Shown here: piece after piece, positions 49,518 to 53,255 of the stretch
Position numbering within the stretch: position 1 is the stretch's first letter
Layout: each line of letters opens with the position of its first letter
DNA from: an uncultured Pirellula sp.
GTDB lineage: Bacteria; Planctomycetota; Planctomycetia; Pirellulales; Pirellulaceae
Length of the DNA: 64,000 bases
Direction: 5' to 3'
Assembly: GCA_903892355.1 (NCBI GenBank)
Contig: CAITIE010000091.1
Location: 62,001-126,000 of the forward strand
Program-made: the position numbers and the translations under genes
The notes under the pieces: generated by a model
What the model was told of the DNA's origin: nothing
Seen by the model: the letters and a program-made list of their open reading frames with translations, nothing else
Database searches by the model: none

Positions 49518-50417
49518 TTAAACCGTGCAGGTTTTGACCGCTTCGCGGAGGCTCGTGACAGCATCCCGCACCGGGATAAACTCGTGAGCGATGTACCCAT
49601 CAAAGCCTGAATCAGCGATGGCCTTAGCGATTGGCGGGTAATAGATTTCCTGGGATTCGTCGATCTCATGGCGACCAGGATTACCGCCGGTGTGATAATG
49701 CCCAAAGTACTGGTGATTCTTTTGAATCGATCGAATGATGTCCCCTTCCATGATCTGCATGTGATAGATGTCATAGAGCAACTTAAAGTTATCGCTAGCG
49801 ACTTCTTTGCAAAGTTCGATTCCCCAGGCCGAGTTGTCGCACATGTAATCGGCATGGTCGACTCGACTGTTGAGCAACTCCATATTGAGGATAACCTTCT
49901 TCTTCTCGGCCACCGGAACGATCTTGCGAAGTGCTTCCGCGCAGTTCTTGAGACCGGTTTTACGATCGATCCCACGAGCATTTCCGGAGAAGCAAATGAC
50001 ATTTCTGAACCCAGCTGCCGACGAATCCTCGATGGTCTCATTAAGAATTTTGAGAGCTTCATCCCAATACTTCGGATCGCACAACCCATCGGAAAGTTTA
50101 TGTGATGAAACCATGGTGCAAACCAGGCCATGGCTCTTAAGCGTTGCGAAATCCTTCTTCGTAAGTAGATCGATCCCGACCATCCCCATCGACTTGGCCG
50201 CTTGGCAAAGCTCGTCGAGCGATAGATTTTTGTCATAGCACCATTTGCAGAGCGATTGATTCAACCTTCCCTGGATTGGAGTCGAAGAGAAGGGGGCTGC
50301 GACTGCGATATCGGCGTTGCTGGATGCAGCGATCCCGCTTGCAACGACGCCGGAACTGAGAGCACCTAATCCGAACGAACGGCGGGAGATACGATCACTT
50401 GGTTCTTGAGGGTTCAT
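49518..50417 (-). CDS. exported sugar-phosphate isomerase/epimerase-like protein
   Basis: 299 residues. A twin-arginine signal (SRRSFGLGALSSGVVASGIAA) starts the protein; the remainder is a TIM barrel of the xylose-isomerase-like/hydroxypyruvate-isomerase class. Metal-site segments are visible as ILNMELLNSRVDH (Glu), LLYDIYHMQIMEGD (Asp-His), HTGGNPGRHEID (His) and YIAHEFIP (Glu). These four match the metal ligands of the family, so it should be catalytically competent; the substrate is unknown. ATG 50417 is chosen because it gives the Tat motif near the N-terminus, while upstream in-frame starts extend only into noncoding-looking sequence. The upstream PQQ-propeller gene ends 70 bp away. Confidence 0.9.
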   Translation of the reverse strand: MNPQEPSDRISRRSFGLGALSSGVVASGIAASSNADIAVAAPFSSTPIQGRLNQSLCKWCYDKNLSLDELCQAAKSMGMVGIDLLTKKDFATLKSHGLVCTMVSSHKLSDGLCDPKYWDEALKILNETIEDSSAAGFRNVICFSGNARGIDRKTGLKNCAEALRKIVPVAEKKKVILNMELLNSRVDHADYMCDNSAWGIELCKEVASDNFKLLYDIYHMQIMEGDIIRSIQKNHQYFGHYHTGGNPGRHEIDESQEIYYPPIAKAIADSGFDGYIAHEFIPVRDAVTSLREAVKTCTV

Positions 50418-50486
50418 CGTAGAGGTTTCCGTAAATTGCAGGGCCGAAAGATTCGGGAAAATGGGCGAGAAATGTTTCCAGATCAC

Positions 50487-51833
50487 TTATTTCATCAATG
50501 GAACTTTGATCAGTTTTTCGTCATTGCGAACATAGATGCATCCGTTGGCAAACGCTGGTGCGCACCAGACAACCTCGCGACCGAAGGCAAAATTGGATGG
50601 TTCGATGATCTTTGTCCGATCGATCTCTTCATAACCCTTAGGAGTCATCTTGGCCGTCACCAATTCGCCCGATTCATTGAACAAATAGAAGATGTCTTGG
50701 TTGCGAACGACGAACGCAGTACCACTCCCTTGGGGGCGGGCACTGATCGGCTTGCTGGTTTCCCAGAGTCGGTCCCCCGTTGCGATTTGGAAGGCCATCA
50801 TTTCGCCGCTTTGATCGCATCCATAGACAACATCTCCGATCACCATCGGTTGGACGTTGACTGGGGACATCCCCTTTTTGGCTTGATTCCGCCAAACTTC
50901 TTTTGCCTTGGGTTCTTTAGCGTCCAGCTCGATCAGCAGATTGCGATTGGAATACCCACCGACGAAAAGATAGTTACCTGAGTGGACTGGTGACATGATG
51001 ATCGAACCATTATCCGCCATGTACTCGATCGACCAGTAGAGCTTGCCGGTTGCCGGGTCCACTGAGTTGACTGCGGCAGGATTAATGAGGATCAATTGGC
51101 GAACACCTGCCGCTTCGATAATCGTCGGAGGCGAATACCCTTGTTCAGGTGCCGTCCCGAACCGCCATACCTCGGCTCCCGTTTTCTTATTCAGGCAAAC
51201 CGTTTGGGACCCATCGCCACCGGCGAGAGTGATCAGGTTATCTCCATCGATCAGAGGATGGGCCGCGTACCCCCAAAGGGCGGAGTTCGTTTTGTAGACC
51301 TCCTTGAGCTGCTTGGACCAAATAATCTTGCCCGTGGCTGCTTCAAAGCAGAACAGATCCCCTTCGGCGCCCAAGGTATAAAGCCGATCTCCATCGACGA
51401 GAGGAGTGCAACGCGGCCCTGCTGGATACGAGATTGCGTACTTGACGGCATACTCATGCGACCAAACTACTTTGCCATTCTCGTTATCAAGGCATAGAAC
51501 GCGTTCCTTCCCTTCGAATGCGTTCCGATTGAAATTATCGACCTTGGCATCGGACTTTGTCATCAAGTCAGTCACATAGACACGATTGCCGACGACGGCT
51601 GGGCCCGAATAGCCACCTGAGACCGGAATACTCCAAGCTGCCTTGAGACCTCCCTCAGGAAATTTGGTCAGTACTTGGGTCGCTTTCCACTGGTTGTCGC
51701 GATTCGGTCCCATCCATTGCGGCCAATCCTCTCCTCGTACCACCGAAGCGTGGATCCACGGAGCTGCAAATGCGATGACAGATAGAATGAGATATCGAAA
51801 AAATAAGGGATGTCGAGCGATGCGTTGTATCAT
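50487..51833 (-). CDS. PQQ-like beta-propeller exported protein
   Basis: 448 residues. A signal sequence (LILSVIAFAAPWIHASVVRG) precedes an eight-bladed-type beta-propeller with repeated signature strands ATGKIIWSKQL, KTGAEVWRFG, ATGKLYWSIE and ATGDRLWETSKP. EDWPQWMGPNRDNQW is a start typical of planctomycete PQQ-binding-like proteins. Most such proteins do not hold PQQ but act as scaffolds, for example of BamB type. It may form an operon with the isomerase-like gene 70 bp downstream. It would be periplasmic or outer-membrane associated. Confidence 0.9.
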   Translation of the reverse strand: MIQRIARHPLFFRYLILSVIAFAAPWIHASVVRGEDWPQWMGPNRDNQWKATQVLTKFPEGGLKAAWSIPVSGGYSGPAVVGNRVYVTDLMTKSDAKVDNFNRNAFEGKERVLCLDNENGKVVWSHEYAVKYAISYPAGPRCTPLVDGDRLYTLGAEGDLFCFEAATGKIIWSKQLKEVYKTNSALWGYAAHPLIDGDNLITLAGGDGSQTVCLNKKTGAEVWRFGTAPEQGYSPPTIIEAAGVRQLILINPAAVNSVDPATGKLYWSIEYMADNGSIIMSPVHSGNYLFVGGYSNRNLLIELDAKEPKAKEVWRNQAKKGMSPVNVQPMVIGDVVYGCDQSGEMMAFQIATGDRLWETSKPISARPQGSGTAFVVRNQDIFYLFNESGELVTAKMTPKGYEEIDRTKIIEPSNFAFGREVVWCAPAFANGCIYVRNDEKLIKVPLMK

Positions 51834-51927: not shown

Positions 51928-52327
51928 TTATACACGACCACAAATCTTTGGGTGCGACATGACAGATTGAATGCGTTGTTCCAGCGAACCTCGCAGAATC
52001 GTAAAGGGTATTTTTCGAGCGATTAAGTCGGATTCAATTCGTCGCTGCATCCGAATCCGGTGGACTTGGCCGGATCGATCCCATGTATCCTCGTACGGTA
52101 TATCTGTGTCATATCTGTGTCGCAGAGAAAAAACAAATCGTATCGCTCGCGGGCTTGATGAGCGAGTTGTTCAAGCTCGGGCATGGCATAGCCGTGGTAT
52201 TCTCTTGCAAAGTGCACAGTGGTTGTCGCATCGGTATCGACGGCAATCCAGAGTGGCCAGCTTTCGATAAATCGCTTCGCCAGCAGGGTTTGGGCAACGA
52301 GGCTGGTGGCCGAGGCGCTCGCTGGGC
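51928..52327 (-). pseudogene. remnant of a nicotinamide-riboside-kinase-like AAA_28 gene
   Basis: The minus strand from 52327 to 51928 encodes the C-terminal two-thirds of an NadR/AAA_28-type kinase. Segment VDTDATTT, the lid-like YDLFFLCDTD and, after repairing the frame, DIPYEDTWDRSG, MQRRIESDLIARK and IPFTILRGSLEQRI are recognised. An 11-bp tandem duplication at 52100-52121 shifts the frame; removing one copy restores an open frame to TAA 51928-51930. No Walker A P-loop (expected about 50 residues earlier) precedes it; the flgH stop lies right at the 5' edge. The gene is thus both truncated and frameshifted and cannot code for an active kinase. Confidence 0.72.
52100..52121. repeat. 11-bp tandem duplication disrupting the kinase remnant
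   Basis: ATATCTGTGTC occurs at 52100-52110 and again at 52111-52121 without mismatch. Eleven is not divisible by three, so the duplication shifts the minus-strand reading frame of the kinase remnant. Confidence 0.97.
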
Positions 52328-53149
52328 TTAGAATGGTTTCAGACGAGCATACCATTTGGTGAGCCAACCCCGCGAATATCCATCGCGCACGTGCCCTTGG
52401 TCCTCTTTCTTGATATTCAAATCATAAATATTTCGGCTCAAGACCACGTTATCGGGACCGATGTCTTGAGCGCGGCAGATTCCGCTGAGCGATGCCGCGA
52501 ACGTATTGTCTGTGGCCGAGATCGTCTTTCTCGCTTCTAGCACTATATTCCCGTTGGGTTGGATATCGATGATCTTTGCAGCGATATTGAAGGTCAATTG
52601 TTCACTCGTTCGCATCGTGGAGTCACCGCGATAAACTTCGTTTTCATTGAAACGGGCACGGGGCTCGCCATCCGACTGTGGGGCTGGCTTAATAGTATCG
52701 AGCCCGACCAGACGGATCCAATCCTGAAGGACCGCATCGAGCGTCACCGTCTTTCGAGATGTCGTGTTGCCTTGGGCGATCATCTGCCCCAACTCTTCGA
52801 CGCGGATAGAAACCAAATCGTTAACCTTGAGCACCCGCGCTGGCATCGGTGGTTGGTAGGTAAACGACGATTGCAAGGAAGGGATATTGGTAGGGTTATC
52901 CACCCATGCTCCGTTGGAATAATAACCTCCGCTGGGGCCATAGTAAGGCGCACCGCCATCAGGACTAGGCATGGCACCTTGGAATGCCGCGTAAGGCGGA
53001 ACCTGGGCCGGGTACGCAGGCCGATAGGCACTGTTGTAATCCGGCATGGGCTGCGCGGTCGGGTTTTGGAACAAACTGCCGCTTTGCCCAAAGACCGAAT
53101 GCTGCGTCAGTAGCAAGCAAATCAAAATTATCCAGCTCGATCGATTCAT
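52328..53149 (-). CDS. flgH: flagellar L-ring protein FlgH
   Basis: 273 residues. FlgH forms the L-ring that guides the flagellar rod through the outer membrane. Recognisable parts: VNDLVSIRVEELGQ, FNIAAKIIDIQPNGNIVLEARKTI, LSGICRAQDIGPDNVVLSRNIYDLNI, and the C-terminus RGWLTKWYARLKPF. The signal peptide (MNRSSWIILICLLLTQHSVFG) lacks a lipobox Cys, unlike enteric FlgH lipoproteins. ATG 53149 is chosen for the signal peptide; an earlier frame to 53239 exists. It follows flgA by about 106 bp. No flgI lies downstream. Confidence 0.93.
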   Translation of the reverse strand: MNRSSWIILICLLLTQHSVFGQSGSLFQNPTAQPMPDYNSAYRPAYPAQVPPYAAFQGAMPSPDGGAPYYGPSGGYYSNGAWVDNPTNIPSLQSSFTYQPPMPARVLKVNDLVSIRVEELGQMIAQGNTTSRKTVTLDAVLQDWIRLVGLDTIKPAPQSDGEPRARFNENEVYRGDSTMRTSEQLTFNIAAKIIDIQPNGNIVLEARKTISATDNTFAASLSGICRAQDIGPDNVVLSRNIYDLNIKKEDQGHVRDGYSRGWLTKWYARLKPF

Positions 53150-53255
53150 GGTGTTTCGAAAGGTAATTAAGTGACTGGAAAAAACCGTTGGAACACGTTG
53201 CTGATGAGGGATGTTTGGAAACATAACGTTAGGATCCATGTTGGCGAGGGTAGGA

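Follow-up and report, generated by a model that had tools for sequence, protein, structure and literature searches.

What silenced the gene fragment that lies between flgH and a PQQ-protein gene in an uncultured Pirellula sp.? The window, by which we mean the whole 64,000-nucleotide stretch of DNA that was analysed, carries on its minus strand a fragment resembling the end of a nicotinamide riboside kinase, and the fragment contains an 11-bp tandem duplication. The first-pass annotation had proposed that this duplication broke a working kinase gene. Both neighbours are intact open reading frames. Upstream is flgH (52328..53239, minus strand; Pfam FlgH, E 1.1e-24), which encodes the flagellar L-ring protein and ends with a TAA stop at 52328-52330. 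Downstream is a gene for a PQQ/BamB-type β-propeller protein (50487..51833, minus strand; PQQ_2, E 8.5e-44).

Composition of the fragment

The duplication is real and consists of two copies of ATATCTGTGTC, which form a 22-bp direct tandem repeat at 52100..52121 (plus strand). This repeat is present once in the whole 6.18-Mb genome (G000, a 158-contig draft) and was never reproduced in dinucleotide shuffles of the window. In the actual sequence the kinase part is divided between two frames. If one copy is skipped, translation gives the continuous minus-strand frame that had been described, which carries DIPYEDTWDRSG and IPFTILRGSLEQRI and stays open as far as a TAA at 51928-51930. Counted from the flgH stop, the repaired frame has about 130 codons; it also extends back across the end of flgH as an overlapping frame. 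No start with a P-loop was found farther along the minus strand; the intact flgH is located there, and the frame only overlaps it.

The larger part of the frame is a nadR remnant (51928..52242, minus strand) corresponding to the last ~100 codons of the ribosylnicotinamide-kinase domain. It runs from DTDATTTVHF to GRV-TAA and is interrupted by the duplication. A profile search of the repaired frame returned Pfam AAA_28 (PF13521) with E 7.4e-16 at profile positions 76-164 of 164, in agreement with the proposed NadR/AAA_28-type C-terminus. With one copy skipped, the elements of the C-terminal kinase half (DTD..., DIPYEDTWDRSG and IPF..LRG..EQRI) are all present. The P-loop part of the profile (about 1-75) is missing, and no Walker A motif (GxxxxGKT/S) is found, as the first-pass annotation had noted from the sequence. 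The match to the NadR equivalog family TIGR01526 covers positions 237-318 of 325 (E 4.1e-7); with 29.6 bits it lies far below the curated cut-off of 341, which places the frame outside that family. NadR is a bifunctional protein in which a P-loop kinase domain phosphorylates nicotinamide riboside and an N-terminal domain adenylylates NMN. The remnant shares with NadR the homologous last ~100 residues, but differs from it in having no adenylyltransferase domain, Walker A P-loop or first kinase half, and the rest is frameshifted.

Just before the kinase part, the same repaired frame matches PF04973 (PnuC) at profile positions 105-141 with E 1.4e-6. The frame thus joins two partial Pfam matches directly, PnuC 105-141 and then AAA_28 76-164. 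PnuC is an importer of nicotinamide riboside or mononucleotide. The pnuC remnant (52243..52311, minus strand; located by BLASTN and PF04973) comprises about SASATSLVAQTLLAKRFIESWPLWIAV, from the C-terminal third of the NMN/NR transporter. Whereas the full set of transmembrane helices corresponds to profile positions 1-175, only the late part at 105-141, about 25 codons, is left; all other transmembrane segments are deleted and the frame runs on into nadR sequence. The earlier view that the fragment begins at the flgH stop as a kinase therefore holds in part: the residues beside the stop belong to the PnuC piece, and the kinase C-terminus follows further on. As read from these matches, the fragment is a pnuC-nadR chimera, with ~25 codons of PnuC followed by ~100 codons of NadR, and not a plain truncated kinase.

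Comparison with an intact pair

An intact version of the locus is found in VGZN01000465 (G008), a metagenome-assembled planctomycete genome from surface water according to its isolate name. The gene order there is flgH-pnuC-nadR-PQQ protein, with the PQQ-protein gene directly 3' of nadR, all genes intact, and full matches to PF04973 and to AAA_28 plus CTP_transf_like. The two genes of the G008 pair overlap by 23 bases, pnuC ending inside the start of nadR (C465; L014 762-784), an arrangement that suggests translational coupling of the transporter and the kinase.

BLASTN between the window and G008 gave three collinear blocks, at G008 positions 1-147, 566-633 and 1442 onwards. The first block is the end of flgH extending to position 147, and the last 46 residues of FlgH are 100% identical between the two. 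The second block is pnuC, with 85% nucleotide identity and 81% amino acid identity across the PnuC match, and from 1442 onwards the aligned sequence is nadR. Between the first two blocks ~390 bp are missing relative to G008, comprising the start and the first two thirds of pnuC. This first deletion junction is located at about 52312 in the window. The remains of the flgH-pnuC spacer (GCCCAGCGAGCGC...) occupy 52312..52327 (minus strand), as determined by comparing the junction sequences with G008. The spacer contains one copy of an AAGCCCA repeat in the window versus two in G008, and it also differs by 18 bp between the two AAGCCCA repeats.

Between the second and third blocks ~808 bp (634-1441) are missing. 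In G008 they hold the remainder of pnuC, the entire NMN-adenylyltransferase domain of nadR and the Walker A motif of its kinase domain (GAPSTGKTT). At the resulting junction 2, placed at 52239..52248 (minus strand) by alignment with G008, pnuC sequence passes into nadR. The overlapping bases at this junction read GTCGATA in the window, ATCGACA in G008 pnuC and GTAGATA in G008 nadR. A few of these bases could derive from either parent, which is consistent with microhomology. The remnant is 80-83% identical to residues 263-327 of G008 NadR, the last 65 residues, and the claim that no other damage follows the frameshift proved correct for the ~66 residues beyond it. With an intact orthologue at the same locus in G008 and two deletions plus a frameshift in the window, the locus has the hallmarks of a pseudogene.

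Order of the lesions and alternative readings

The order in which these lesions arose can be read from a second species, an uncultured Pirellula sp. represented by the draft genome ErkenSummer_bin-4334 (CAIYZV010000470; G005). G005 shows the same alignment blocks and exactly the same two deletion junctions, without the 11-bp duplication, which is absent from G008 as well. It has a loss of its own, of 2 bases in a T-rich run situated 10-20 bases from the duplication site. Because G008 aligns gap-free at both indel sites, each indel is derived and private to its genome. The impression that the frameshift is fresh was accordingly confirmed, but the presence of both junctions in G005 without the duplication rules out the duplication as the first lesion. 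The deletions came earlier and killed the pair, contrary to the proposal that a working kinase gene was broken by the duplication; by the alignments, the duplication is a late, private lesion in an already dead gene.

We conclude that the locus is almost certainly the pseudogene remnant of a pnuC-nadR pair that suffered two old deletions and then a private 11-bp duplication, its loss being plausibly tolerable through de novo NAD synthesis. An NAD-salvage pair was formerly located between flgH and the PQQ-protein gene. In an ancestor common to G005, or through transfer between lineages, one deletion took out the start of pnuC along with its first two thirds, and the other fused late pnuC to the middle of nadR, so that transporter and enzyme were lost together, as the comparison with G008 shows. 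The stump then decayed separately, by the 11-bp tandem duplication in G000 and by the 2-bp loss in the T run in G005. Bacterial pseudogenes that decay by deletion and subsequent small indels show the same pattern, with large deletions first, private small indels later and another route available, and the remnant does not differ from them in principle. It is an ordinary decaying pseudogene with a clear order of events.

The private and recent nature of the duplication and the undamaged frame downstream of it would fit a kinase gene that was recently inactivated by the duplication and lost its P-loop separately at the 5' end. This is very improbable, as G005, where the duplication is lacking, has likewise lost most of pnuC together with the adenylyltransferase domain and P-loop of nadR. 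The duplication might instead be a sequencing or assembly artefact, given that the G000 genome is a draft in 158 contigs and that G005 does not have it. We consider this unlikely: exact tandem duplications of 11 bp are a kind of mutation that commonly arises in nature, and a tolerated indel is expected in a locus already pseudogenised by the shared deletions. Even if the duplication were an error, the main conclusion stands.

The fused frame could also be regarded as a new short protein, with a PnuC helix joined to the C-terminal half of NadR, that arose in the common ancestor and is still made by frameshift bypass. The repaired frame is indeed open for ~130 codons counted from the stop of flgH, and across ~391 bp of the remnant G000 and G005 differ by 10 substitutions, 6 nonsynonymous and 4 synonymous in the old frame, slightly under the neutral expectation of about 7.6 : 2.4. 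However, 6:4 from 10 changes is too few to distinguish from neutrality, and the catalytic P-loop is absent. The frame is furthermore broken differently in each species. Judged by length, the +11 and −2 changes leave whatever follows them in different wrong frames, an observation that speaks against a programmed bypass. On these grounds a new short protein is scarcely credible.

Counting against neutral decay, the 10 changes in the pseudogene remnant are below the number expected of a neutral stretch, given a neighbouring synonymous divergence of 0.07-0.2. The adjoining 3' half of flgH is less diverged still, at 1 change per 200 bp. We infer from this that the low divergence of the remnant more probably reflects a recent shared origin of the local sequence than constraint. 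Over 52400-52999, the 3' two thirds of flgH, G000 and G005 differ by ~1% (6 in 600 bp), synonymous sites included, against ~4-5% outside it (roughly 9-10 per 200 bp). This segment is possibly a recent recombination or exchange tract between the two lineages. Since the remnant adjoins it, the shared deletions could have been acquired by descent or by such an exchange. The highest divergence from G005 in the 8 kb compared, 5-12%, was observed at 50200-50999, at the junction of a TIM-barrel gene and the PQQ gene.

NAD metabolism and distribution of the pair

Searches of the G000 genome with AAA_28, PnuC and full NadR proteins detected no other pnuC or nadR, and the earlier suspicion that no complete homologue exists elsewhere in the genome was borne out: apart from the remnant, only off-target P-loop proteins were returned. 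The PnuC search matched the remnant stretch alone. The two remaining AAA_28 matches scored below the cut-off: Pfam assigns one to thymidylate kinase, and the other reads by eye as a RarA-like ATPase. Family matches identified NadA, NadC/QRPTase and a glutamine-dependent-type NAD synthase, and a NadD-like ORF was recognised by eye, as was a CoaD-like one. With these NAD-synthesis proteins present the loss is plausibly tolerable, and de novo NAD synthesis probably makes the salvage pair dispensable.

Within the genus the pair is kept in 6 of 27 genomes, side by side in G008, G041, G016, G002 and G011 (in the last with a partial pnuC match, profile 66-175) and on two contigs in G007. In G020 a nadR-like gene occurs with no pnuC, in G000 and G005 there is the remnant only, and most other genomes of the genus have neither gene. 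Across the order, a NadR match at E ≤ 1e-20 was obtained in 18 of 296 genomes, both remnants counted. The pair was seen beside flgH only in the group of G008, G000 and G005. No paper on the loss of the pair in these bacteria was found among the titles and abstract openings of the literature.

The pair has a patchy distribution among freshwater Pirellula-like planctomycetes, and here the transporter gene and the kinase gene disappeared as a single unit. The order of the loss is still legible, with deletions common to two species followed by a small indel of its own in each, and it cautions against assuming that a gene was inactivated by the one frameshift that can be seen in it. A separate observation concerns flgH in G002, where a second, partial FlgH C-terminus of 42 residues (60% identical, with one stop; C95:94258-94383; L050 4259-4384) is situated about 550 bp after the flgH gene.
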